Below, piece by piece: positions 15,405 to 52,315 of a stretch of DNA of 52,315 bases. The translations under genes were made by a program, and so were the position numbers. This DNA is from an uncultured Bacteroidota bacterium (GTDB lineage: Bacteria > Bacteroidota > Bacteroidia > B-17B0 > Aurantibacillaceae). The notes below the pieces were generated by a model, which saw only the letters and a list, made by a program, of their open reading frames with translations, had not been told where the DNA came from and did not search any database. Each line of letters begins with the position of its first letter. The first letter of the stretch is position 1. The stretch spans positions 1 through 52,315 of the forward strand of contig CAILKE010000041.1 of the NCBI GenBank assembly GCA_903834765.1, written 5' to 3'.

Positions 15405-18400
15405 TTATCGTCTTAATTCAACGTATCCTTTTAAAACTATATCTCCATTATTTACTTCGAGAATTGCAAAGTAGGTGGCGTCAGGTAAGGCTTCACCACT
15501 CTTGTTGCTACCGTTCCATTCATTTAAGTATCCTATTTTGGAATAAACAATATTTCCCCAACGATTATATATAGTTAATTCATTATTTGGATAAGCTTCG
15601 ATACCATGAACTACAAACAGATCGTTCTTTACATCACCATTTGGTGAGAAACCTTGAGGCATTTCAAGAACTAATGGTTGTGTTATTGTAATCTCTGCAG
15701 AAATTCGACAACCGTTTGTATCCATAACGGTTACATAATAATTACCAGAATTTAAGTTAGTGATGTTTTGAGTTGTACTGCCATTCGACCATAGATAGTT
15801 GTATGGAACTCTTCCACCACTTACAACTAAATCTGCAGATCCATCATTACCTTGGGTAGTAGACACGTTATAGCCATTACTCAATACAGGACTATATATG
15901 AGAACTTGCATTGGCGAAGGTTCAGTGATTTTTGTACTATCCCTATAGATACAGTTGTTTGCATCTGTAAGAATCAAGCGATAATATCCACTAGGTATAT
16001 TAATTAAATCTTTTGAAATACTGCCATTTGACCATAGGTATGAGTAAGGCATTGTTCCACCTGTTGGATTAATAAAAATGTTAGCAATGGTATCACCATA
16101 ACATTTTAAATTATCTACATGCTTACCAATTATCATTGTATCTGGTTGATTAACTTTAACAATGGCAAGGTTGTTACAGCCGTTCATATCACTATAATTT
16201 AATGTATAAGTACCTGCACCAATATTTGATAAATCTTCAGTAGTTGCTGAGTTAGACCATAAATAAGTGAATGGAGATACACCACCAGCTATAGTTGCAT
16301 TAATTGAGCCTGTAGGTATACCGTGACATTTTAAATCTGTAACTACAGAAGAGAATGTTAATGCAGATGGCCCAGTTATAATGGCACTTAAGGTTGCTGT
16401 GCATTTATTTAAATCGGTTACAATAAAAGAATAGTTACCAATTCCAACGTTTGTTAAATCCTGATTAGAACTATTATTGCTCCAAGCATAAAGGTAGTTA
16501 GCTACTCCTCCTGTAACAGAAACATAAACACCACCATTTTGAGAACCAAAACAACTAACGCCATATCCGTTATAATTACTAATTGAATCGACCGATGCAA
16601 CTAATGGAGTAGGCTGAGTTAATATAGTTGTTAAAGTATCATGGCAACCATTATTATCTGTCACAATTACTGAATAAGTTCCAGAACTTATATTTATGAT
16701 ATCTTGAGTTGTTGCAGTGTTAGACCAATTATATGTATATGGTGCAGATCCGCCGCTAACAGATAGATAAATAGAACCAGTTGAATCGCCGAAGCATTTT
16801 ATAGCACCAATTGTATTAATTAAAACGAGCGCTTGCGCTGGTTCGCTAATTGTAATATTAGTGGTATCCTTACATGCATTTGCATCCGTAAAAATCACTG
16901 TATAAGTCCCTGCTCCAATATTTACCAAATCCTGATTATTAGATCCATTAGACCAAATATAACTATAAGGTGTTGTGCCACCATTTATGGTTAAGTCAAT
17001 TGACCCAGTTGAAACACCTTTACACACTGGGTTTATAGCTGAATAAGTAAAAGATAGGGCGGCAGGTTCGGAAATAAGAGTGTCAATAGGAATTTGGCAA
17101 CCATTTGTATCAGTTACAACCAGATCATAACCCCCGGCATATAACCCTGAAATGTTTTGGTTATAAGATGTATAATTATTTGGTCCTCTCCACCAATAAA
17201 CATAACCTTGCACGCCGCCATTAACATTCAAATTAATTGAGCCGGAAGCATTACCGTTGCAACCAACATTAGTTACACTTAATATACCTGTTAATGCAAT
17301 GGCTGGTTGGATTAAGGTGATGGTTGATGTATTAGTACAGCCATTTGTATCAGTAACAGTTACAGAATAACTACCTGCAATGATATTATTAAAATTCTGA
17401 GTGGTAGCAGAAAAACCTGCAGGACCATTCCAATTATACATATAGCCTGGAGTTCCTCCATTAACAGTGTTATAAACAACGCCAGATGAATCTCCTTTAC
17501 ATCTTATATTTACTCCACCTATATATATCTGTGTTGTTAAAGATTGGGTTAATGGTGATGGCTCTGTAAGCGTTATCATATTTTGTTTTTGACAGCCATT
17601 AATATCTGTAACTAAAACCGAGTAAGTGCCAGCAGCTAAATTACTTAATGATGTTGCTGTTGATGTAAAGGCAGATGGTCCAGACCAAGTTTGAATATAA
17701 GGATTTGTTCCACCGTTAATAGTTAATTGAATGATACCATTGTTTGAATTAAAACAACTTAAATTGGTTCCACCTATAAATAAGGGGCTAACTAACGTAT
17801 CTTTTATTTCGGTTGGTTCACTTAATATTTCACTTAAATTAAAGATGCAATTATTAGCATCGGTAATGGTAACCGAATAAGTTCCTGCATAAAGCGAACT
17901 AATGTTTTGAGTTGTTGCAGTGAAAGAATTAGGGCCTGTCCAAGCATAGTTGTAAGCAGATGTTCCGCCTGCAGGAATAAGATTGATGGTTCCGTTATTA
18001 TTTCCAAAACAACTGATGTTATAGCCTCCAGCATAAACTGTACTATTTCCAACAGCAGTTAATGTAGCCGGCTGAATTAAATTAATAACAGAATTTGTTG
18101 TACAGTTATTCGCATCAGTAATTGTTAGTGAATAAGATCCCGCACCTATGGAATTGATATTGGCCGTTGTAGCTGAAAAACTTGATGGTCCAGACCAAGC
18201 ATACTGATAAGTTTGAGTACCACCATTAACCGTAGTTGTAATTGCTCCATTTGTTAATCCATAACAACTGATGTTATTGCCACCAGTATATGTAAAACTA
18301 CTTACGCTATTTACTAATACAGCAGGCTGAGTAAGATTTATGGATGTTGTATAAGAACAGTTATTTATATCATTAACAATAGCTGTATATGTTCCTGCAA

Positions 18401-21400
18401 CAACATTGTTTAAATTTTGAGAAGTAGTGGTAAAGCTTGATGGGCCTGTCCAATTATATGAATATGGACTTGTTCCGCCAATAGCTCCTAAGGATATTGT
18501 ACCTGTAGCATTGCCATTACAATTAATATTATAACCACCATTAAAGGATGGACTATTTGCTGATGCAAATAAAGTAGCTGGTTGAGTAAGGGTAATGGTA
18601 TTAGTAATCGTGCAATTATTTGCATCTGATATAATAGCAGTGAATGAACCAGCTGCAACGTTAGTAACGTTTTGAGTTGTTGATCCATTACTCCAAATAA
18701 TAGTGTAAGGTAATGTACCACCACTTAACGTTTGGGTGATGACTCCGTTATTAGCATTATTACAAGTAATGTTATAACCGCCATTAACTATAGGGCTATT
18801 AATACTTCCAAGCATGGCATTAGGTTGCGTTAATGTAATGCTAGATGTAAGTGGACAAGCATTCGCATCATTAATACTCACACTATAAACTCCAGCTACT
18901 AAACCTGATGGACTTTGTACATTTGATGTGTAACTCGAAGGACCGCTCCAGCTGTAGGTATAACTTGGAGTTCCACCACTGTTACTCAAAATAATAGTGC
19001 CATTGTTACTTCCGTTGCAAGTAATATTATATCCTCCAGCATAAGTTGGACTATTTATAATTAAATTCATTACTGGCGGTTCAGTTAAAGTGATACTTGA
19101 ACTTGTGATACAGCCATTTGCATCTGTTACCGTTACTTGGTAAACACCAGCCTTTAACCCAACTGGATTTTGAACATTGGAAGTATAAGTTAAAGGTCCA
19201 CTCCATAAATAACTATATGCGCTTGTTCCGCCATTCACAGTTAAGTTTATGGCACCGTTTAACAATCCATTACAGCTAATGTTATAGTTTCCATTAAATA
19301 CAGGGCTAGTTACATTTGATGTTAAATTAGTTGGTTGAGTGATGGTGATGCTTGCTGTAGTTGTACATTTATTTGCATCATATACTATCACGTTATATGT
19401 TCCAGCAATTAATCCGGTTGGATTTTGTGAGTTACCTGTATATGCATTAGTTCCTGTCCATGAATATGAGAAATTTGGAGTTCCTCCATTTACGGTTAAA
19501 TTAATGGATCCGTTGTTGTTACCATTACAACTAATGTTATACCCACCAATTACAGTTGGACTCGCAGCAGAAGCTAATAAACTGTTAGGTTGAGTTAAAG
19601 TGATGCTGTTACTGGTTACGCAACCATTAGCATCAGTTAAAACAATACTGTAAGTTCCAGCAGAAACATTTGTTGGATTTTGAGAAATGGAAGTATAACT
19701 CAATGGCCCTGTCCAAGAATAGGAATAAGTAGGTGTACCTCCAGAATTTGTCAAATTAATATTTCCATTACTTAAACCATTGCAGGAAATATTATATCCA
19801 CCCGATACGGTTGGGCTTGTTACGCCTGTTGTTAAAATAGTTGGTTGAGTTAAAGTTATAGTACTTGTTCCATTACAAGAATTTACATCTGTTACAGTTA
19901 AGGTGTAGGTTCCTGCAAATAAAGTATTTATATTTTGGCTAGTTGCAGTATATGTTGACGGGCCTGTCCAGCTATAATTATAAGCAGGGGTTCCGCCAGT
20001 TGATAAACTCGTTAAACTGCCTGTTGATGCACCATTACATGTAATGTTATAATTTCCAGCAAAAACAGATGGCGTTAAGGTGTTTGAAATGGCATTTGGT
20101 TGGGTGAGTGTAATTAATTTGTTAGCAGCGCAGCCAGCATTGTCAGTTACAACCAATTGATAATTTCCAGCATATAACGAAGATATATTAGCTGTAGTCG
20201 CTGTAAAACTTGATGGTCCAGTCCATAAGTAAGAATAAGCAGGTGTGCCTCCAGTTACATTAACGGCACTGATGGCGCCATCATTATAACCATAACAACT
20301 AATGTTTTTTCCTCCACTGAAAGACGAAACGGTATTTGTAATAACTATAGCACCTGGCTGTGTTACTGTATACACAGCTGATTTAGTACAACTATTTTCA
20401 TCCGTTACTGTTAAAGAATAATTTCCAGCAACTAAAGTACCAATACTAGCTGTAGCAGCAGTATAACTTGCAGGCCCAGCCCATGAATAAGTGTAGGTTG
20501 CTGTACCACCGCTTAATCCAATGGAAATAGCTCCATCATTAAAAGATGGGCATGTTGCTGGTGTTACAGTTGATGATAGACTTAATATGGTTGGTTGAGT
20601 TAATGTAGTTGTATAATTTTTAGTACAAGCATTTGCATCGGTAATCAATACACTATAAGTTCCAGCAATTAATGTGTTGATGTCTTCTGAAGTAGAAGAA
20701 TATCCTGATGGACCTGTCCACGCAAAAGTATAGCCCGAAGTTCCACCTGAAGGTGTTAGATTAATAGTTCCATTATTTCCACCAAAGCAGGAAATGTTAT
20801 TGCCATTAAATAAAGTACTACTTGAAGTTGCCGTTAAAACAGATAATGGTTCAGTGATACTAACTGTTTTGGTAACAGGTACAACACACCCATTATTATC
20901 AGATACAATTACTGTATAGTTACCGGCAACTAAATTACTAGCAACTACGGTTGTTTGAGTTGGTGTAGAGTTCCAAGAGTATGAATAAGAACCGCTTCCT
21001 CCAGAGGTGGCAACTGTTGCAGCACCAGTAGCATTGGTTTTACATTTTACATTAAAACTATTTGTAATAGTTGCGCTTATTGCTGACGGTGGTTGAGAAA
21101 TATTAACAGATGTAAGTATTGAACAATTATTGGCATCTTTAACTGTTACTGTATAATTTCCAGCAGCTAAACCAGTAGCAGTTGATAGTGTTTGGGTAGG
21201 AGTTGTACTCCAAATATAAGTATATCCACCAACACCTCCGCTTGCAGAAACGGCAGCTGTAGCAGAATTTGCCCCATAACATAGTACGTTGTTATGAGAA
21301 CTTATAGATGCTGTTACCGCTGATGTTGGTTGAGAGATGCTGACTGTTTTTGTCGCACTACAATTATTTACATCTTTTATTGTTATTGAATAAATTCCAG

Positions 21401-24107
21401 CTGTTAAACTAGTTGCAGTTGCAGAGGTTTGAACAGGACTGCTACTCCAACTATAAGTATAAGGTGCAGTTCCTCCAGTTGCTGATGCAGTGGCGCTTCC
21501 TGAATTATTTCCGAAACACAAGACATTACTTTGTGAACTTATACTTGCTGTTATAGCAGCTGATGGTTGAGTAATAGTAGTTTGAATGCTATAATTACAA
21601 TTATTAGCATCCTTTATACTAACTATATAAGTACCAGCATTTAAATTGATTGCTGTAGCCGTAGTTTGCGAAGGAACAGAACTCCAGCTATAAGTATATG
21701 CTGGAACGCCACCAGAAGCTAATACGGTGGCTGAGCCATCATTAAATCCGAAACAAGAAACATTACTTTTAGAACTGATAACAGCAGAAACATTCGTAGC
21801 TGGTTGACTAATGGTAACAGGAGCAGTAGTTGTACAGTTTTTTGCATCGGTAATAGTTGCAACATAACTGGCAGCAACTAAATTGACAGCTTGAGCATTA
21901 GTTTGAGCAGGAGTACTATTCCATGAATAAGAATAAGGAGTTGTTCCGCCAAATACTGAAACACTTGCCGAACCTGTTGCATTACCTTGACAAGCTACAT
22001 TTGTTTGAGACGCAATATTTGCAATCAAAGCCGCCGTAGGCTGAGAGATACTTAATGTTTTTGTTTGCGCACAATTATTAGCATCCTTAATGCTTACTGT
22101 ATATTGTCCAGCGCTTAAATTAGAGGCAATGGCATTGGATTGAACGGGTGTTGTGTTCCAAGTATAAGTGTATGGGGATGTTCCTCCAGATGTGCTTAAG
22201 GTTGCCGCGCCAGTTGCATTACCAAAACAGTTTACGTTTTGTTGAGCTGTAATAGAAGTTGTGAACGTATTTGGTTGAGTTAAATTAATGGTTTTTGTTA
22301 ATACACAATTATTAGCATCCTTTATTGTTAACGTATAATTACCACCAACTAAATTTGAGGCTGTTGCTGTTGATTGTGAAGGTACAGAAGACCAAGTATA
22401 TGTGTATGGAGCAGTTCCTCCGGCAACAAGTGAAGAAGCAGATCCTGAATTCCCACCATTACACGCTACATTAAATCCACCGTTATAGGTAGGACTCGAT
22501 ACGGTAGTTGTAACAGCTGCTGGTTGACTAATAGAAACGGTTCCTGTTTTTGTACATCCTTTTTTGCCAGTAACACTGACTGTATAAACGCCTGGAGCTA
22601 AAGAATTTATAGTTTGCGTGGATGCGCTAAAAGAACCTGGTCCACTCCAACTAAAGGTATATGGCGAAAAGCCATTAGTGACCGAGAGATTAACAGCGCC
22701 ATTATTTGCGCCGTTGCAGGATACATTGGTTGGTGTAAAACTTAAATTTATATCACTGACATTTATTTTAGAATACCTATTCATAAGACAGGTACTTGCT
22801 GTAGTAGTTAATGTATAAATGGTTGTAGCACTTGGTGTTGCTATAGGATTTTTAATTCCAGCATTACTTAGGCCAGAAGAAGGAAGCCAATTAAAGGCGC
22901 TACCACCTCCAGTTGTGTTAATTGAAACACTTTGTCCTTTGCAAATTGAATCAATAATAGGTGTAATGGATGTAAATAAGGAATCTTGAATGTAAAATCT
23001 TAAGCTGTCTAAAATTTGATTGGAGCATAAAGGGTTTCCTAAATATACGGTAAGATATTCTGTACCTTCATTTATTCCATCAGCAATAGGATTAATATTT
23101 AATGTAGCGCTTGTTTGACTTGCAGGAATAACAATTGTTTTCGGATTAGAAGGACTTGGAGAACTACCTATTAAAGGATAATCTGTTCCATTGATAGCAG
23201 TGCCGCCTAACCAATAATTAATAGATAGAGCTGTTGGAGCAGCAGTTGGTCTTTTAAAAATAACTTGCCCATTATTACAACCCTCGACCATATTAGCAAT
23301 ACCGCCTGCTGTTTGACTTAATAATAGAATAGTGTTAGATGAAATTTTTTCAATAAATACACCTGAGTCCCATAATTTATCCGATACATCGGCTACAACT
23401 AATTTTAAATGATATGATTGACACGGTGTTACTTTAGAAATAGCCTTTAAGCCTCTTGTAAATCCATCGTATTCTACTGAAGTACCATTATTGTTGTTTT
23501 GATAATATTGAGTATTTGAGCTTTGGTTAACATTATTAATAGTAACGGGTATTGTAGTATTAGGAAGTAAAGCAATGTTATGATAAACGCCCGCACCAGC
23601 ATCACCTGTAATACCAGGTCCACTGATAAAAAAACCAAATACATCATTGTATTGTGAGCCTACCCATTCCTCATATTCTTCGGAAGCAAAAACGAAATCA
23701 AATTTGATAGTATCCCCCTGAGGAACAATATCAAATTCAAATTCACAATATTCATAGGTTGTTCGACCCGTATAATTATTTAAAAGACTATAAGTACTAG
23801 CGGTAGTTTTATTTCCGAAATACCAAGTAGTATTAGTTGAGTCGTTAGGACCAACTGCGTTTGATATTTTACCTGTCGTTAATAATAATCCCTCTGTAAT
23901 ATTTAAATTACTAGAGGTCGCATTGTATTTGCCGTATCCATTAGCTCCGCAATGCACCACAGGGTTTGTAATTTGAACCCCAGGCCCAGAGATAAGTTGA
24001 GCTAATTGCGTTGGCGTTAAAGTGTTAGAAATAATCAATTGAGCCTTGGTATTAAAACTTAATAATATCGAAGTAACTGAGACGATGTAAATAAATATTT
24101 TTTTCAT
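15405..24107 (-). CDS. Giant SprB-repeat surface adhesin with T9SS type B sorting domain
   Basis: The 2900-aa protein has a signal peptide (MKKIFIYIVSVTSILLSFNT..), a choice-of-anchor L-like domain (about 28 to 265; FVFASEEYEEWVG, FGFFISGPGITGDAGAGVYH), a Calx-beta-like segment and an Ig-like segment. About 29 SprB repeats of 70 to 80 residues follow from roughly 456 to 2790. Each contains N(I/V)SCNG.N.G.I.L...GG, then PY.Y.W, then L.AG.Y.V.VTD.N.C; one (the last) lacks the cysteine. The C-terminus from about 2812 (QGFSPNGDVKNDLFVVHG ... IYNRWGNIVY ... YFAILE) is the type B (gliding-motility-associated) sorting domain. The repeats likely form a long filament moved on the cell surface or used for attachment. 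Followed by its porP/sprF and porE-like partners. Confidence 0.95.
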   Translation of the reverse strand: MKKIFIYIVSVTSILLSFNTKAQLIISNTLTPTQLAQLISGPGVQITNPVVHCGANGYGKYNATSSNLNITEGLLLTTGKISNAVGPNDSTNTTWYFGNKTTASTYSLLNNYTGRTTYEYCEFEFDIVPQGDTIKFDFVFASEEYEEWVGSQYNDVFGFFISGPGITGDAGAGVYHNIALLPNTTIPVTINNVNQSSNTQYYQNNNNGTSVEYDGFTRGLKAISKVTPCQSYHLKLVVADVSDKLWDSGVFIEKISSNTILLLSQTAGGIANMVEGCNNGQVIFKRPTAAPTALSINYWLGGTAINGTDYPLIGSSPSPSNPKTIVIPASQTSATLNINPIADGINEGTEYLTVYLGNPLCSNQILDSLRFYIQDSLFTSITPIIDSICKGQSVSINTTGGGSAFNWLPSSGLSNAGIKNPIATPSATTIYTLTTTASTCLMNRYSKINVSDINLSFTPTNVSCNGANNGAVNLSVTNGFSPYTFSWSGPGSFSASTQTINSLAPGVYTVSVTGKKGCTKTGTVSISQPAAVTTTVSSPTYNGGFNVACNGGNSGSASSLVAGGTAPYTYTWSSVPSQSTATASNLVGGNYTLTIKDANNCVLTKTINLTQPNTFTTSITAQQNVNCFGNATGAATLSTSGGTSPYTYTWNTTPVQSNAIASNLSAGQYTVSIKDANNCAQTKTLSISQPTAALIANIASQTNVACQGNATGSASVSVFGGTTPYSYSWNSTPAQTNAQAVNLVAASYVATITDAKNCTTTAPVTISQPATNVSAVISSKSNVSCFGFNDGSATVLASGGVPAYTYSWSSVPSQTTATAINLNAGTYIVSIKDANNCNYSIQTTITQPSAAITASISSQSNVLCFGNNSGSATASATGGTAPYTYSWSSSPVQTSATATSLTAGIYSITIKDVNNCSATKTVSISQPTSAVTASISSHNNVLCYGANSATAAVSASGGVGGYTYIWSTTPTQTLSTATGLAAGNYTVTVKDANNCSILTSVNISQPPSAISATITNSFNVKCKTNATGAATVATSGGSGSYSYSWNSTPTQTTVVASNLVAGNYTVIVSDNNGCVVPVTKTVSITEPLSVLTATSSSTLFNGNNISCFGGNNGTINLTPSGGTSGYTFAWTGPSGYSSTSEDINTLIAGTYSVLITDANACTKNYTTTLTQPTILSLSSTVTPATCPSFNDGAISIGLSGGTATYTYSWAGPASYTAATASIGTLVAGNYSLTVTDENSCTKSAVYTVTQPGAIVITNTVSSFSGGKNISCYGYNDGAISAVNVTGGTPAYSYLWTGPSSFTATTANISSLYAGNYQLVVTDNAGCAANKLITLTQPNAISNTLTPSVFAGNYNITCNGASTGSLTSLSTGGTPAYNYSWTGPSTYTATSQNINTLFAGTYTLTVTDVNSCNGTSTITLTQPTILTTGVTSPTVSGGYNISCNGLSNGNINLTNSGGTPTYSYSWTGPLSYTSISQNPTNVSAGTYSIVLTDANGCVTSNSITLTQPNSLLASAASPTVIGGYNISCNGNNNGSINLTVNGGTPNFSYSWTGTNAYTGNSQNPTGLIAGTYNVIVYDANKCTTTASITITQPTNLTSNVTSPVFNGNYNISCNGLLNGAINLTVNGGTSAYSYLWSGPLTYTSNVQNPVGLKAGVYQVTVTDANGCITSSSITLTEPPVMNLIINSPTYAGGYNITCNGSNNGTIILSNSGGTPSYTYSWSGPSSYTSNVQSPSGLVAGVYSVSINDANACPLTSSITLTQPNAMLGSINSPIVNGGYNITCNNANNGVITQTLSGGTLPYTIIWSNGSTTQNVTNVAAGSFTAIISDANNCTITNTITLTQPATLFASANSPSFNGGYNINCNGNATGTISLGAIGGTSPYSYNWTGPSSFTTTSQNLNNVVAGTYTAIVNDINNCSYTTSINLTQPAVLVNSVSSFTYTGGNNISCYGLTNGAITTTVNGGTQTYQYAWSGPSSFSATTANINSIGAGSYSLTITDANNCTTNSVINLIQPATLTAVGNSTVYAGGYNISCFGNNNGTINLIPAGGTSAYNYAWTGPNSFTATTQNISSLYAGTYSVTITDANNCIFNLSEILSEPTEIKDTLVSPLFIGGTNLSCFNSNNGIIQLTINGGTNPYIQTWSGPSAFTSTATSLSNLAAGTYSVLVTDINGCQKQNMITLTEPSPLTQSLTTQIYIGGVNIRCKGDSSGVVYNTVNGGTPGYMYNWNGPAGFSATTQNFNNIIAGSYSVTVTDTNGCTNTSTITLIQPAIALTGILSVTNVGCNGNASGSINLNVNGGVQGYVYWWRGPNNYTSYNQNISGLYAGGYDLVVTDTNGCQIPIDTLISEPAALSFTYSAINPVCKGVSTGSIDLTINGGTTPYSYIWSNGSNNQDLVNIGAGTYTVIFTDANACKDTTNITISEPAQALVLINTIGAIKCFGDSTGSIYLSVSGGSAPYTYNWSNTATTQDIINISSGTYSVIVTDNNGCHDTLTTILTQPTPLVASVDSISNYNGYGVSCFGSQNGGVYVSVTGGVANYLYAWSNNSSNQDLTNVGIGNYSFIVTDLNKCTATLSAIITGPSALTFSSVVTDLKCHGIPTGSINATIAGGVSPFTYLWSNSATTEDLSNIGAGTYTLNYSDMNGCNNLAIVKVNQPDTMIIGKHVDNLKCYGDTIANIFINPTGGTMPYSYLWSNGSISKDLINIPSGYYRLILTDANNCIYRDSTKITEPSPMQVLIYSPVLSNGYNVSTTQGNDGSADLVVSGGRVPYNYLWSNGSTTQNITNLNSGNYYVTVMDTNGCRISAEITITQPLVLEMPQGFSPNGDVKNDLFVVHGIEAYPNNELTIYNRWGNIVYSKIGYLNEWNGSNKSGEALPDATYFAILEVNNGDIVLKGYVELRR

Positions 24108-45474: not shown

Positions 45475-48261
45475 ATGAAATTATTTTTTACAACTATTAT
45501 TTCAATTATTTCGATTACTGCTTTAGCTCAAGCGCCTCAAAAGGTTAGTTATCAAGCTATTGCTAGACAAGCCAGTGGAGTGGTAATTTCAAATGCACCT
45601 ATCGGTGTTAAATTTATAATTTATCAAGGCTCTATTGGTGGCACTATTAGCTACGAGGAAACCCATAATCCAACAACAAATCAGTTTGGCTTATTTACAT
45701 TATTTATTGGAGGCGGTTCGCCTTCAATTGGTGCATTTAATACTATTAATTGGGCAATTGGTCCTTATTTTATTGAAACACTAATTGACCCTGCAGGTGG
45801 AACTTCTTATTCTTCAATCGGTACTCAACAATTCATGAGCGTACCTTATGCATTATTTGCTGAAAAAGCAGGTAATGCAAGTCCAACACCAACTATTACA
45901 GGGAATGGTTTAGCGATTGTTACCCCAACAACTGGCTCTTTGTTTTCAGTATCAGTTCCAACTCCAGCATTAAATTATACGCCAGGAACTAACGTATTAT
46001 CTCTTACTCAAGGCACAAGTGTTACAACCACAACATTAAGTGGTTCAGGTTCTAATACAATAACGATAACTGGTTTAGGTGCAACAACAGTTACTCCAAA
46101 TGGTGCAGGCAGTATATTTACAATAAATACACCATCCTATACAGCAGGTTCGGGCATTTCTATATCTTCAGGAATTATAACAAATACGGCAACCTCAATT
46201 ACTCCAACAATTAATATTAATTCGCCTAATTCTATTACTAATCCTTTGTCAGGAGTTTATAATATTTCAGTTCCATCTTATACAGCAGGTTCGGGCATTT
46301 CTATATCTTCAGGAATTATAACAAATACGGCAACTTCAATTACTCCAACAATTAATATTAATTCGCCTAATACTATTACTAATCCATTGTCAGGAGTTTA
46401 TAATATTTCAGTTCCATCTTATACAGCAGGTTCGGGCATTTCTATATCATCAGGAATTATAACAAATACGGCAACCTCAATTACTCCAACAATTAATATT
46501 AATTCGCCTAATACTATTACTAATCCATTGTCAGGAGTTTATAATATTTCAGTTCCGTCCTATACAGCAGGTTCGGGCATTTCTTTATCATCAGGAATTA
46601 TAACAAATACGGCAACCTCAATTACTCCAACATTGATAGCGGGTACAAATATGATTGTAAATCCTACTATTGCTAGTAATAGTTATACGGTTTCTTCCCC
46701 AAATTATTCATTATCTACCCCTTCAAATACATTACTTTTATTAAGTAACGGCATCAATAATTCAACAGTAATTATTCCTACTCAATTACTTTCTTTATCT
46801 GGAAGCACTTTAACATCTGGTATTTCAACCAATTCTATTAATTTATCAGCGCTTCCCGGGTTGTGGACAGCATCTGGAGGTAGCTTATACCCAACTTCAG
46901 CAAGTCGAATCGGTATTGGAACAACAACTCCAAACAATTCAATTCAAGTTGCTGGTTTAATTAATTTTGAAAATAATGGCTCAAATACAGGATTAGGTTA
47001 TAATACAGGTTCAGGGATAGGGCCTAATAATATATATAATACATTTTTAGGATATTTTGCTGGACAGGCTGTAGGAACAGGCACTGCCTCTGGTAATACA
47101 TTTGTTGGATATAATTCTGGAATAAATAGTTTGAATGGCAATAATAATTCTTTTTTAGGAATGAATTCAGGAATAAATAATACTACTGGATATTATAATA
47201 CCTTTTTAGGAGTAGGTGCCGATTTATTTTCATCAACTCAAAGAACAAATGCGACAGCAATTGGTTATAATGCTAAGGTTGATACCAATAATGCCATTGT
47301 TCTAGGAAGTTCGGGTGTGAATGTGGGGATAGGAACTAATAAACCAACTTCATCACTTCATATTACTAATAATATTGGTTCTCAAATAAAGTTTGGACAT
47401 ATTAATCAGCCCAATCTGGAATGGTATTTTGATGTTAGTGCTATCTCACACATGGGATTAAGAAATGAAAACAATGGTACAGCTCTAAATGTTATGGATT
47501 TTAATACGGGAACAGGCTATGTTGGAATTGGTGTCACAAATCCTGGATACAAATTATCTGTGATTGGAGCTTCTGGAGATGATAACGCAAGTATTTATGC
47601 TTCTAATAGTTCGTCAAATACAACCGTTGCTTCTCACGGTGTTAGTGGTTTAGCGCAAAGTACGCATAGTTTGTCATCTGGTATTTATGGAAATAGTATA
47701 TATGGTCCAAGTATATATGGATACAAAACAAGTTTACAAACTGGAATTGCGGGAAGATTTGAAATAGCAAATACCACTAATAGTGCAGATGCTGTTTTTG
47801 CGCTAACTGTTGGAACAGGAGCAGCGGTTCATGCAGCTTCTGGAACAACAGTTTCTTCTAGTCCTGCTCTAGCTCTTTTAGTAGAAGAAGGTCATATTAA
47901 ATCAAAACAAGCGACTGCACCTACCACAAGCACCATTTCCGTTTCTGGTGGAGGTATTTCTGGAGTATCCGTATCATTAACAAATGGAACAGATGTAAAA
48001 GGTACACTAAATGCGGTTTTAACTACTACTACATTAATAAATGCTAATAATAATGCAGCTATAAAAGTTACTTTTAATAAGCCGTATTCAATAATTCCAA
48101 CTGTTGTAGTTACACCATTGACCGATATGCTTGGAATGAGTTATTATCTTTCAAACGTTAGTACAACTTCATTTCAGTTAAATATTAAAAATACTACGGG
48201 TTTAAACTTATCTACTACTGCAAGTATGCCAATTAACTTTAACTATATAGTAATTGAATAA
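45475..48261 (+). CDS. Large repetitive surface protein with YadA-head-like repeats
   Basis: 928 aa with signal peptide (MKLFFTTIISIISITALAQA). The N-terminal domain (APQKVSYQAIARQASGVVIS ... FMSVPYALFAEKAGN) is the conserved head of many Bacteroidota tail-fibre-like surface proteins. Then come threonine/serine-rich repeats including four 47-aa units (SYTAGSGISISSGIITNTAT...). Residues about 520 to 620 form left-handed-roll, YadA-head-like repeats (NTFLGYFAGQAVGTGTASGN, NTFVGYNSGINSLNGNNNSF, TAIGYNAKVDTNNAIVLGSS). The C-terminal region has STSSLHI-type and GIYGNSIYGPSIYGYK segments and a final beta domain. No T9SS sorting tail is visible. Overlapping or abutting the next gene (ATG 48266, 4 bp after its stop), so the two are co-transcribed. 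Confidence 0.85.
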   Translation: MKLFFTTIISIISITALAQAPQKVSYQAIARQASGVVISNAPIGVKFIIYQGSIGGTISYEETHNPTTNQFGLFTLFIGGGSPSIGAFNTINWAIGPYFIETLIDPAGGTSYSSIGTQQFMSVPYALFAEKAGNASPTPTITGNGLAIVTPTTGSLFSVSVPTPALNYTPGTNVLSLTQGTSVTTTTLSGSGSNTITITGLGATTVTPNGAGSIFTINTPSYTAGSGISISSGIITNTATSITPTININSPNSITNPLSGVYNISVPSYTAGSGISISSGIITNTATSITPTININSPNTITNPLSGVYNISVPSYTAGSGISISSGIITNTATSITPTININSPNTITNPLSGVYNISVPSYTAGSGISLSSGIITNTATSITPTLIAGTNMIVNPTIASNSYTVSSPNYSLSTPSNTLLLLSNGINNSTVIIPTQLLSLSGSTLTSGISTNSINLSALPGLWTASGGSLYPTSASRIGIGTTTPNNSIQVAGLINFENNGSNTGLGYNTGSGIGPNNIYNTFLGYFAGQAVGTGTASGNTFVGYNSGINSLNGNNNSFLGMNSGINNTTGYYNTFLGVGADLFSSTQRTNATAIGYNAKVDTNNAIVLGSSGVNVGIGTNKPTSSLHITNNIGSQIKFGHINQPNLEWYFDVSAISHMGLRNENNGTALNVMDFNTGTGYVGIGVTNPGYKLSVIGASGDDNASIYASNSSSNTTVASHGVSGLAQSTHSLSSGIYGNSIYGPSIYGYKTSLQTGIAGRFEIANTTNSADAVFALTVGTGAAVHAASGTTVSSSPALALLVEEGHIKSKQATAPTTSTISVSGGGISGVSVSLTNGTDVKGTLNAVLTTTTLINANNNAAIKVTFNKPYSIIPTVVVTPLTDMLGMSYYLSNVSTTSFQLNIKNTTGLNLSTTASMPINFNYIVIE
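46135..46640 (+). repeat. Four in-frame 141-bp near-identical repeats
   Basis: Units begin at 46135, 46276, 46417 and 46558, exactly 141 bp (47 codons) apart; the fourth is incomplete, diverging after about 80 bp. Copies differ at only a few bases per unit, mostly silent or T/S and S/T changes, which points to recent duplication or gene conversion. Confidence 0.93.
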
Positions 48262-48265
48262 TACA

Positions 48266-49042
48266 ATGAAATACTATTTAATTATCATATTTGTTTTTGG
48301 AATTGTTGTAAAACAATTAGCTCAAACTATCTCTCCGCAGGTTATCAACTCTGCTGGTGGTGTTGGAGCTGTTGGTTCTAGTGGCGTAGAGGTTTATTAT
48401 AATATTGGTGAACCTTTAACAAATACTATAAGTAATGGAGTTAACTTATTGACTCAAGGTTTTTTACAACCAGATATTTTAGGAAATTTTGGACTAAATA
48501 TTTCTCCTTTATTTTCAAATGAAAGTTGCTTAGGTAAAAATGATGGAAAAATAAATTTAATTTTAAATGCTCAGCCTCCAAGTGCTATAACAATTAAATA
48601 CATATGGTCGCCTTACTTTGTTTGTCCTGGAGATAATTGCTCCAGTGTCGACAGTTTACCTCCAGGAAATTATTCAGTATTCATAAAAGCACTAAATAGT
48701 TCGGGTAATATGATAGATTCAATTACCAAACAGTTTACGATTATTGCTAATACTGATCCTTGTCAAATTATAGTGTTTACTGGCCTTAGTCCAAATGGTG
48801 ATGGATTGAATGATAATTGGATAATAGAAAATATTGAAAACTTCCCTAACAATTCTGTAAATATTTATAACCGCTGGGGAAACCGAATTATTGGCATTAA
48901 TAATTACAATAACACAAATAATACTTGGAATGGACAAAGCTCTTCTGGTTCAGTTTTACCAAATGGCACTTACTTTTATGTCATAGAGTTAAATAATGGT
49001 TCGGGGGTAAAAAAAGGTTGGGTAGAGTTAACTGGAAAATAA
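48266..49042 (+). CDS. Secreted protein with T9SS type B sorting domain
   Basis: Start chosen at ATG 48266 (MKYYLIIIFVFGIVVKQLAQ), giving a signal peptide; a TTG at 48254 would overlap the previous gene. 258 aa: a short domain with VINSAGGVGAVGSSGVEVYY and NIGEPLTNTISNGVNLLTQG, typical of small Bacteroidota surface proteins, an SprB-like segment (ESCLGKNDGKINLILNAQPP), and the type B tail (FTGLSPNGDGLNDNWIIENI ... VNIYNRWGNRIIG ... LPNGTYFYVIEL). It may anchor or accompany the large protein encoded just upstream. Confidence 0.9.
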   Translation: MKYYLIIIFVFGIVVKQLAQTISPQVINSAGGVGAVGSSGVEVYYNIGEPLTNTISNGVNLLTQGFLQPDILGNFGLNISPLFSNESCLGKNDGKINLILNAQPPSAITIKYIWSPYFVCPGDNCSSVDSLPPGNYSVFIKALNSSGNMIDSITKQFTIIANTDPCQIIVFTGLSPNGDGLNDNWIIENIENFPNNSVNIYNRWGNRIIGINNYNNTNNTWNGQSSSGSVLPNGTYFYVIELNNGSGVKKGWVELTGK

Positions 49043-49498: not shown

Positions 49499-52315
49499 AT
49501 GATAAACAAAACATTTATAAAAAAAATATCCTCATTAATTCTCTTAGTAGGATTAATTTGTTTTCAAGTTAAACTATATTCTCAAACCATTCAAACATTT
49601 GCTACAGCCGGAGCAACAAGTTGGACGTGCCCATTTGGTGTTACCACTATTACAGTTGAATGTTGGGGCGCTGGTGGTGGCGGCGGCGGCGGTGGGTCTG
49701 TTATTAATGCTGCCGGTGGTGGCGGTGGCGGTGGGGCTTATGCTAGTTCTGTCATTACTGTAGCTTCAGGAAATATTTATACAATAACTGTTGGTGCAGG
49801 TGGTGCAGCTGGTGGAAGTTTTGGCACCACAGGTGGAAATGGAAGTAATTCAAGTTTTAATTCAACTATTGTGATGGCCGCTGGTGGTAATGGCGGTATT
49901 GGCTCTGGAGGTGGAGGAACTGGTGGCATCGGAGGTGCAGCAACTTCTTGCACAGGAACCTTTAAGTATTCGGGCGGAAATGGTGGAAGTGGAAATGGCG
50001 GTATTGGTGGTGGCGGTGGAGGTAGTAGTGCGGGTTCATCAATTAATGGAAATACTGCAAGTCAATATATAGGTGGAGTTGCACCAGCAGGCGGTGTTGC
50101 AGGAACTTCCGCAAGCACTTTGGCAGCAGGGGCTGTTGGGAATGTTGGTTTAAGTGGCGGTGGTGGTGCTTCTGCTGGCAGAAGAGGTTCAAGTGGTATT
50201 GATAATGCAGGCGGAGCGGGCGGAGCGGGAAAAGTAGTGTTAAGTTATTGCACTGCAATGTCTATAACATCAACCCAAACTAATGTAAGTTGTACAGGTG
50301 GCAATAATGGATTTATTGATGCTACTGTTACAGGAGGAATTCAAAACAGCGGCAGTATAATATTAGACATTCAAACCGTTGATGATATTTGTGCAGCTGG
50401 CGGTAATGACTCTTGGCAATCTTTTACTCCAAATCTTACTGCCAGGTTAGCGGCTTTTGAAGTTAAATTAGACGGACCTGATAATGGCAATTGGTACCTT
50501 TACAAAGGCACTGGAGTTGGTGGGGTATTATTAGCTTCTGGAACTTATACAGCAACAGCAGCAGGTTATAAATACATATCAATACCATCATTACCGCAAT
50601 TAACTGCTGGTCAGATTTGTACGTTCAGATTAACAACTCCTATGGTAGATTGGTTGGTTTCGTGCTCGGCTAATTATAGTGGTGGGCAAGACAATAATAA
50701 TAACGCATTTGATAGAGTTTTTAAAACACATATGGTTTTAAATCCATATAGCTATCTATGGTCAAATGGAGCTGTAACGGAAGATATTAGTAATTTAGTG
50801 GCGGGTTCATATACGCTCACAGTTACCGATGCAGTTGGTTGCAGTGCTGTTGATACAAAAACGATTACCAGTCTTGGTCCTTTAGTTATAACAGCTTCAG
50901 CATCACCCACTACTATTTGTGCTGGCTCTACAAGTACCTTAACGGCCTTTGGTCCGCTTACTTTAGATCAAAAATCTATTCCGGGCTCCCAAACCGGATC
51001 ATGGGCTGCAACAAATGCAGAACAACAAACATTCATTCCATCAACGACTGGCTTACTTAGAAAAGTTAGAATTCAAACTGCTACTTATGGTTCTGCAACA
51101 AATATTACAGTAAATATTAAATCAGGAACTCCTACAACTGGATCTTTATTAACAACAGTAACCTATTTTAAAGCGGCAAATTTAAATTCGTGGGATGATG
51201 TTATATTACCAGGCTCTGGAGTCAATTTAACAGCTGGTACCACTTATTATATCGAAATAGTTAGTGGAAGCCAGGTAGATTGGATTTATAATTCAACCGA
51301 TACCTATTCAAATGGAAATGCATCTAGAGGCGGAACTAATTATACTTGGGATTATAATTTTGAAACCTACATGGATTTAAATACTTATGTATGGAATCCT
51401 GGCGCATTAAGTAATCCTGTAATCGCAGTAAATCCAACTATTACCACCAATTATACGTTAACAGTAACAAGTCCTCTAAGTTGTTCAAATTCGCAAATCG
51501 TAACTGTAAATGTTGATCCGGTTAGTGTTGGTGGAACTGCATCTGCTAATCAATCTATTTGCATTGGTCAAATTTCTGCTCCTATTACATTAACTGGATC
51601 AATAGGTGCGATACAATGGCAATCATCTCCAAATAATACTACATGGACAAATATTTCTGGTGCTACCACAAATATTTTATCAAGTGCACAAATTGGTCCT
51701 TTAATTTCTACAACTTATTATAGAGCCACGGTCACTAGTGGTTTATGTACTGCAGTGGTATCAAATGTAATTACAATTACTGTTAATGCATTTCCTTCTA
51801 TTAGTGCAAATAGTGCAACTATTTGTTCAGGAACATCAGTTGTATTAACAGCAAGTGGAGCCTCAACATACTCTTGGAGTTCAGGAGCCACAACATCCAC
51901 TATATCTGTTTCACCTACATCTACTTCAGTTTACTCTGTCACAGGCACAACAAATGGCTGTTCGTCATTAAATACAGCAACAGTATCAGTAAATCCTACT
52001 CCAACCCTAACAGCTGTAGCATCTCCAACAGCAATGTGCATTTTTGCTTCCGCAAATTTAACAGCAACGGGTGCATCAACGTATACTTGGAATCCAGGTC
52101 CAATAACCGGTTCAATAGTAAGTGTGAGTCCAAGTGCTACAACTATTTATACAGTAACAGGTACAAGTGCAGCAGGATGTATTAATACTCAAACAACAAG
52201 TTTAACAGTAAATAATAATCCAACGTTAACAGCAACGCCATCATCAACAGCAATTTGTATTGGTGCTTCTGCAAATTTAACAGCAACGGGTGCATCAACG
52301 TATACTTGGAATCCA
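49499..52315 (+). CDS. Giant glycine-rich, Ig-repeat surface protein, 3' end outside the window
   Basis: The frame starts at ATG 49499 and is open for 939 codons to the window edge. It begins with a signal peptide (MINKTFIKKISSLILLVGLI..). Residues about 30 to 255 are a glycine-rich domain (VTTITVECWGAGGGGGGGGS ... AGGAGKVVLSYC). Next is an SprB-like repeat (TNVSCTGGNNGFIDATVTGG ... YLWSNGAVTEDISNLVAGSY) with about 130 extra residues in its middle, and an Ig-like domain (TTICAGSTSTLTAFG ... YVWNPGALSNPVIAVNPTIT) with about 145 extra residues at the equivalent place. Further Ig-like repeats follow (TICSGTSVVLTASGASTYSW; CIGASANLTATGASTYTWNP). By analogy it should end in a T9SS sorting domain, but this lies beyond the window. 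Confidence 0.88.
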   Translation, partial: MINKTFIKKISSLILLVGLICFQVKLYSQTIQTFATAGATSWTCPFGVTTITVECWGAGGGGGGGGSVINAAGGGGGGGAYASSVITVASGNIYTITVGAGGAAGGSFGTTGGNGSNSSFNSTIVMAAGGNGGIGSGGGGTGGIGGAATSCTGTFKYSGGNGGSGNGGIGGGGGGSSAGSSINGNTASQYIGGVAPAGGVAGTSASTLAAGAVGNVGLSGGGGASAGRRGSSGIDNAGGAGGAGKVVLSYCTAMSITSTQTNVSCTGGNNGFIDATVTGGIQNSGSIILDIQTVDDICAAGGNDSWQSFTPNLTARLAAFEVKLDGPDNGNWYLYKGTGVGGVLLASGTYTATAAGYKYISIPSLPQLTAGQICTFRLTTPMVDWLVSCSANYSGGQDNNNNAFDRVFKTHMVLNPYSYLWSNGAVTEDISNLVAGSYTLTVTDAVGCSAVDTKTITSLGPLVITASASPTTICAGSTSTLTAFGPLTLDQKSIPGSQTGSWAATNAEQQTFIPSTTGLLRKVRIQTATYGSATNITVNIKSGTPTTGSLLTTVTYFKAANLNSWDDVILPGSGVNLTAGTTYYIEIVSGSQVDWIYNSTDTYSNGNASRGGTNYTWDYNFETYMDLNTYVWNPGALSNPVIAVNPTITTNYTLTVTSPLSCSNSQIVTVNVDPVSVGGTASANQSICIGQISAPITLTGSIGAIQWQSSPNNTTWTNISGATTNILSSAQIGPLISTTYYRATVTSGLCTAVVSNVITITVNAFPSISANSATICSGTSVVLTASGASTYSWSSGATTSTISVSPTSTSVYSVTGTTNGCSSLNTATVSVNPTPTLTAVASPTAMCIFASANLTATGASTYTWNPGPITGSIVSVSPSATTIYTVTGTSAAGCINTQTTSLTVNNNPTLTATPSSTAICIGASANLTATGASTYTWNP

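Follow-up and report, generated by a model that had tools for sequence, protein, structure and literature searches.

A shared, predicted sandwich domain nested within split SprB and Ig/PKD-like stalk domains of an adhesin-like protein from an uncultured Bacteroidota bacterium

The closest described counterpart of the arrangement reported here is found in RTX adhesins. According to two reports (PMC12077191, PMC10865825), these proteins carry tandem Ig-like extenders, and split Ig-like domains of the stalk project ligand-binding domains; MpIBP of M. primoryensis, FrhA of Vibrio and AhLap of Aeromonas exemplify the shared feature, an Ig-like host that is interrupted by a foldable guest. We investigated an adhesin-like gene at the end of contig CAILKE010000041.1 (assembly GCA_903834765.1) of an uncultured member of the Aurantibacillaceae (Bacteroidota), whose genome comprises 3.6 Mb in 79 contigs; the whole stretch of 52,315 nucleotides is referred to as the window. 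Judged by sequence comparison, an SprB repeat and an Ig/PKD-like domain of the encoded protein are each split around a guest domain, and both guests belong to one family. The building principle of split domains is known from the RTX adhesins, and the hosts, the guest family and the export system differ here. RTX adhesins are type I secreted, whereas relatives of the present protein carry type B sorting domains of the type IX secretion system (T9SS); the guests interrupt SprB, Ig/PKD-like and HYR domains, they come from another family, and their binding role is proposed by analogy. No RTX family appeared in a Pfam scan of the 939-aa part upstream of the contig end. Our guess is that the likeness is convergent.

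The protein starts with a signal-peptide-like stretch (read by eye) upstream of a Gly_rich_2 domain, followed by the split SprB repeat with a guest of 135 aa, the split Ig/PKD-like domain with a guest of 143 aa, and intact Ig-like repeats. The contig stops inside this repeat array, with the C-terminus of the protein beyond it. The features of the gene are as follows:
49499..52315, forward strand: adhesin-like open reading frame (ORF) of 939 aa, open to the contig end at 52315 without a stop
49604..50248, forward strand: Gly_rich_2 domain, aa 36-250 (E 2.1e-13)
50243..50338, forward strand: N-terminal part of the SprB repeat, aa 249-280 (Pfam positions 1-24 of 37)
50339..50743, forward strand: guest 1 in the SprB host, aa 281-415 (135 aa; profile match aa 289-413)
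50744..50878, forward strand: C-terminal part of the SprB repeat, aa 416-460 (Pfam positions 27-36 of 37)
50879..50953, forward strand: N-terminal part of the Ig/PKD-like domain, aa 461-485 (custom Ig model, MAFFT, AlphaFold2)
50954..51382, forward strand: guest 2 in the Ig host, aa 486-628 (143 aa; profile match aa 489-626)
51383..51523, forward strand: C-terminal part of the Ig/PKD-like domain, aa 629-675 (custom Ig model, MAFFT, AlphaFold2, superposition)
51788..51994, forward strand: intact Ig-like repeat (65.7 bits, Ig model)
51995..52210, forward strand: intact Ig-like repeat LTATGASTYTWNPG, corresponding to unit 2 without an insert (79.6 bits, Ig model)

In unit 1, the motif FIDATVTGG ends at 50338 (aa 280) and PYSYLW resumes at 50744 (aa 416); in unit 2, STLTAFG ends at 50953 (aa 485) and TYVWNPG resumes at 51383 (aa 629). 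Host profile hidden Markov models (HMMs) were built from intact repeats only, with the guests and 90 surrounding residues masked. The flanks of unit 1 occupy positions 2-27 and 30-73 of the custom SprB model, those of unit 2 positions 4-26 and 29-71 of the custom Ig model. Because the flanks cover complementary model positions, neither of them is a complete domain. Joined directly, the halves reach 66.5 bits (SprB) and 67.6 bits (Ig), and with a two-residue linker 69.6 and 76.3 bits, compared with 45.2 and 44.0 bits for the better half alone; shuffling of either half (20 shuffles) drops the joined score to about the other half's own. An earlier note on this DNA, made from the letters alone, had placed the breaks at these coordinates and in this frame, had estimated inserts of about 130 and 145 residues, and had proposed that an SprB-like and an Ig-like domain were split by related inserts. 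All of this is borne out: the flanks are incomplete by sequence rather than separate complete domains, the inserts are related on profile comparison (see below), and the motif pairs listed for them share alignment columns.

The Pfam SprB repeat (PF13573) provides a comparison with a described family. Host 1 matches it once the guest is excised and differs from it by the guest between positions 24 and 27 of 37; the scores are 30.2 bits for the left half, 14.7 for the right and 44.6 for both joined (cut-off 28). With guest 1 left in, the score is 29.4 bits, at the edge of the cut-off, and the split repeat is absent from the listed matches in a Pfam scan of the whole ORF. The joined halves of host 2 score 12.9 bits with Pfam Ig_7 (PF19081), under its cut-off of 27.3, and the whole protein including its intact repeats also stays below it (15.2 bits), which is why we name this host Ig/PKD-like and not Ig_7. 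The protein itself contains an internal control, since the intact repeat LTATGASTYTWNPG corresponds to LTAFG, guest and TYVWNPG in unit 2. When unit 2 was aligned with 17 intact Ig repeats by MAFFT, all 17 rows showed one long gap opposite guest 2, its ends varying by at most two residues; for unit 1 the corresponding alignment was unusable, as the intact SprB repeats were placed on the wrong half. There is no sign of a recent mobile insertion, because the guest borders show neither a target-site duplication (25 bases on each side, with one shared 6-base word at guest 1 and none at guest 2) nor a shift in GC content (host pieces 36-44%; guest 1 37.8%, guest 2 35.2%).

The relationship of the two guests was established by hhalign. 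Five guest-1-like and five guest-2-like sequences align over 129 columns with a probability of 97.8 and an E value of 1.2e-12; the identity between the two clades is 22-31%. Invariant in a 13-row alignment are Q510, F512, G548, Y603, G606, D618 and F621 (guest 2, numbering of the window protein). Guest 1 and its four relatives (5/5) share two cysteines that guest 2 lacks and that perhaps form a disulfide. The best named sequence relatives include choice-of-anchor R (NF041539; matched by 4 of 13 guests, best E 2.4e-6) and DUF4082 (PF13313; 2 of 13); Pfam PHR is matched weakly by a single guest of the 13 (E 0.0017). An HMM of 64 guests recovers three of six DUF4082 loci at E 5e-6 or better, a small set. 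Five of ten guests tested match DUF4082 weakly (best 20.8 bits, cut-off 28.4), and in 198 sampled genomes of the class NF041539 yields no match over its cut-off and matches at E 0.001 in 26. To judge from these matches, the guest appears nearest to choice-of-anchor R, DUF4082 and, weakly, PHR-like sandwiches, below curated cut-offs. With either window guest, no Pfam family exceeds its cut-off. A sequence search of the PDB returned nothing for guest 1; eleven weak dehydrogenase matches (best E 0.27) for guest 2 and a single laccase match (E 0.44) for the guest profile were taken as chance.

Nested guests recur beyond the window. Of 395 genomes sampled from the class, 48 match the guest profile, as do 22 of 395 sampled from the phylum, with the own genome included in both; each window guest alone matches in 6 of 87 genomes of the order. 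The guest set comprises 64 copies at E 1e-6 or better, from 49 fetched regions and the window. For the class, 40 regions from the stronger rows were examined, and most rows weaker than about 1e-8 lie outside the set, as do the new phylum matches. Excision and rejoining was applied to 63 of the 64 guests, one right flank being too short, and 17 of the 63 gain at least 5 bits for an SprB, Ig or HYR host. A first joined-match test had found a restored host for 20 of 64. Three of these were dropped from the count: L090 (position 78), whose right piece alone scores higher and which gave no crossing match on retest, L021, which lost bits, and L057, which gained less than 2 bits. A phmmer crossing test (28 of 64 crossed) was also discarded, as tandem arrays can cross a junction by phase and the N-terminal guest L065 crossed too. 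Both nested units of the window occur in a second genome (G080), in one open frame and with guests 87% and 70% identical, and L097, from the uncultured Bacteroidetes metagenome-assembled genome KT_bin-0184, likewise carries both.

Mismatched flanks served as a background for these gains. Gains of at least 5 bits occur in none of 1936 mismatched pairs with neither side host-labelled and in 37 of 1691 with one side unlabelled. The latter divide into HYR 19/308, Ig 7/264, SprB 4/220 and HYR2 1/44 with the left side labelled, and into Ig 3/270, HYR2 3/45, HYR 0/315 and SprB 0/225 with the right side labelled. Halves of the same host from different proteins are interchangeable in 42 of 42 (HYR), 22 of 30 (Ig) and 17 of 20 (SprB) cases. 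HYR halves crossed with Ig or SprB gain in 10 of 154 pairs, and HYR2 with a labelled partner in one of 30 (SprB left with HYR2 right). Because the labelling of hosts followed the first joined-match test, the swap counts per host are descriptive. Ig and SprB halves can replace each other, 41 of 60 cross pairs gaining 5 bits or more, which shows that the break lies at an equivalent loop in both hosts. In HYR hosts the break falls near position 22-25 of 79, with one at about 55.

Some further copies look nested by eye. In the fibre-like proteins L058, L060 and L085, the guest has a KFQGY-type stretch on one side and a C-terminal W-V/I-D motif on the other; in L061, L082, L083 and L084, guests seemingly occupy the last loop of a Big-like domain, with up to four guests in L061. 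No seeds were found for host models of the Big-like and W-D-motif hosts, and these guests were left uncounted.

AlphaFold2 was applied to unit 2. An alignment of five nested homologues gave a mean predicted local distance difference test score (pLDDT) of 57.8, with a guest core at 77-86. The final alignment (A8), which combines nested homologues with 17 intact Ig rows, raised the mean pLDDT to 80.2 at a predicted template modelling score of 0.75; the host blocks reach 78-97 and the guest core 85-94, and two guest loops remain below 50. In this model, host strands 7-11 and 21-26 precede the guest and the host region 171-214 follows it, so that the guest sits between strands 2 and 3 (BC-type loop) of one PKD-like domain; its first and last strands (30-32 and 163-168) adjoin the two host halves. 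A repeat domain of the grappling hook protein GhpA of Aureispira (9flv_A 2562-2641) superposes 71 model residues between 3 and 215 on 80 contiguous residues (Z 10.1, 1.6 Å), the PKD domain of ColG (4tn9_A) superposes 79 (Z 9.8, 2.7 Å), and 4l9d_A also superposes on the host (Z 8.2). Because the host has about 72 residues and the aligned range extends from the left into the right half, we read the two halves as together forming one domain of PKD/Ig fold. The likeness to GhpA (Z 9.5-10.1 for its repeat domains) concerns the restored host and not the guest. The model supports a host that closes around its guest; it is not independent proof, as the added rows presuppose an Ig host.

The guest itself resembles PHR domains (Z 7.5-8.7; 3no8_A 8.7 and 7.9 in two comparisons), known from the eukaryotic proteins MYCBP2 and BTBD2, whose sandwich fold appears similar and whose sequence relation to it is weak. 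It also resembles carbohydrate-binding modules, with Z values of 8.3 and 8.1 for 7zvo and of about 7 for CBM6 entries. Two phage chains also match the guest part, namely the phi812 baseplate chain 9euj_G (Z 10.1-11.1) and a mycobacteriophage fibre chain (about 9).

Two structural expectations of the earlier note can be judged from these results. That both breaks fall at the same structural point agrees with the exchange of Ig and SprB halves and with the position between strands 2 and 3 in unit 2, and the nested pattern does occur in other Bacteroidota proteins, as the counted copies document. The prediction of one folded host domain holds for unit 2, the unit modelled, given the intact Ig rows. 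That the guests nest in Ig loops holds for SprB and Ig hosts and proved too narrow as a rule: guests also interrupt HYR hosts, and some are found singly behind an N-terminus.

We rather favour the reading that the gene encodes a secreted stalked protein of T9SS type B-like kind with two split stalk hosts, whose autonomous sandwich guests project sideways and most likely bind a ligand near the tip. The SprB repeat and the Ig/PKD-like domain would act as split hosts in the stalk, each opened at the BC-type loop, which joins strands 2 and 3, to take up a guest sandwich. The guest would fold alone, leave and re-enter the host at one point while the host closes round it, and thereby project sideways from the stalk. 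Guests look autonomous because of the copies that stand alone, and we take them for binders because split domains of RTX adhesins project ligand-binding domains; by this analogy the guest may be the ligand-binding part, probably glycan-binding, near the tip. For the window copy we infer export by the T9SS together with sideways display and ligand binding. In the relative L020 the T9SS type B sorting domain TIGR04131 forms the C-terminal end (E 1.5e-18), as it does in the gene upstream of the window copy, and similar ends were seen by eye in L019, L022, L023 and L024. The C-terminus of such proteins is located at the cell, hence the N-terminal part would represent the tip. Twelve of 13 counted split-host guests in frames without a contig-end cut start in the N-terminal third, though these 13 are not independent, six being close HYR relatives.

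Several observations weigh against this reading. The majority of the rejoined copies (46 of 63) gain less than 5 bits with the three host models; some of them may lie in hosts without a model here, and some stand alone or sit in fibre-like proteins. The sorting domain of the window copy itself lies beyond the contig end. Without the intact Ig rows the host of unit 2 is not modelled with confidence (residues 1-25 and 169-216 at pLDDT below 50). Guest 2 reaches 26.1 bits with NF041539 (cut-off 30) and guest 1 gives no match, and DUF4082 finds no match in either window guest at E 0.1. Structural scores of Z about 8 or less are at a level that a common arrangement alone can reach, and the two phage chains outscore the PHR domains and carbohydrate-binding modules. 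A sandwich fold alone, moreover, shows no function.

Of the competing explanations, the fusion of unrelated reads inside a repetitive gene by assembly or binning has a negligible probability. The window contig does end in a repeat array and the G080 contig in the same gene, but nested units also lie well inside longer contigs (G069, G075, G079), and assembly error is dismissed because both units recur in G080, each in the same open frame. It is very improbable, too, that the flanks represent two distinct domains, truncated or degenerate, with the guest merely in tandem between them. Either half is recognised by its host model even without the other, and the first structure model, from five rows, left the host unfolded, whereas the halves are complementary without overlap in both units, the gains of own pairs stand against none among unlabelled and few among half-labelled mismatches, and the second model of unit 2 with its superpositions gives one host domain.

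A more serious alternative concerns the role of the guests, which could be structural branches or spacers that provide rigidity, shielding or docking within the fibre and have no external ligand, the nesting simply tolerating a domain with adjacent ends. No ligand is known for the guests, their seven invariant residues (Q, F, G, Y, G, D, F) could all be structural, and the family also occurs in fibre-like proteins and several unrelated contexts. We nevertheless regard this as unlikely: the counted split-host guests are mostly found near the N-terminus, the presumed free end, and the guest clades diverge strongly, as recognition parts tend to do. In the RTX adhesins, according to the reports cited above, the guests of split hosts are binders. 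Only a little less doubtful is the origin of both nested units by duplication of one ancestral unit with a later change of host. The approximately unbiased test does not reject a tree that unites the SprB guests with the guest-2 clade (p-AU 0.335), and nested units do duplicate, as in the G075 homologue L020 (7973-16396). This protein harbors two SprB hosts side by side, whose guests share 85% identity, and a long tandem Ig array with a type B sorting domain at its end. The hosts, however, come from two families, SprB and Ig, and the best tree sets the SprB guest clade (100/99) apart from the guest-2 clade, with the stand-alone copy L022 nested inside the latter.

In this guest tree, based on 64 rows and with a bootstrap that had not settled, the HYR-nested guests also form one clade (99/94), while the Ig-nested guests need three changes. 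It is thus likely, though short of proof, that the guest entered different hosts on separate occasions. More tentatively, the loop between strands 2 and 3 may be a general socket in Bacteroidota stalk domains, which an undescribed lectin-like family entered several times (SprB, Ig, HYR) in a T9SS convergence with the RTX adhesins; we treat this as a possibility short of our preferred reading.

The neighbourhood of the gene contains, as context, a T9SS-related feature:
48254..49042, forward strand: upstream neighbour gene with a T9SS type B sorting domain (TIGR04131, E 1.5e-16)
A second giant SprB-type adhesin is located at 15405-24107 on the reverse strand (2900 residues, 28 SprB stretches, CHU_C type IX secretion domain). 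A fibre-like protein of 928 residues at 45475-48261 on the forward strand contains long near-identical repeats (SYTAGSGISISSGIITNTATSITPTININSPN, by eye) and has a weak H_lectin match below cut-off. That the contigs of the window and of G080 both end within the repetitive adhesin-like gene is as seen in short-read assemblies.

Among the open-access titles and beginnings of abstracts in the matches listed, none describes SprB, Ig or HYR domains as hosts of this nested guest, and the main text of a paper on fibrillar adhesins (PMC9210967) makes no mention of the terms nested, inserted, SprB, Bacteroid or T9SS. Annotation misses the nested units because the split SprB repeat sinks to the edge of its cut-off and the two window guests have no Pfam family above cut-off. 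Giant T9SS surface proteins consist mostly of stalk, and their binding part is usually hard to tell. If a guest in a split host marks the binder, as in RTX adhesins, then excising the insert, rejoining the flanks and rescoring them would find candidate binding domains in the adhesins of Bacteroidota.

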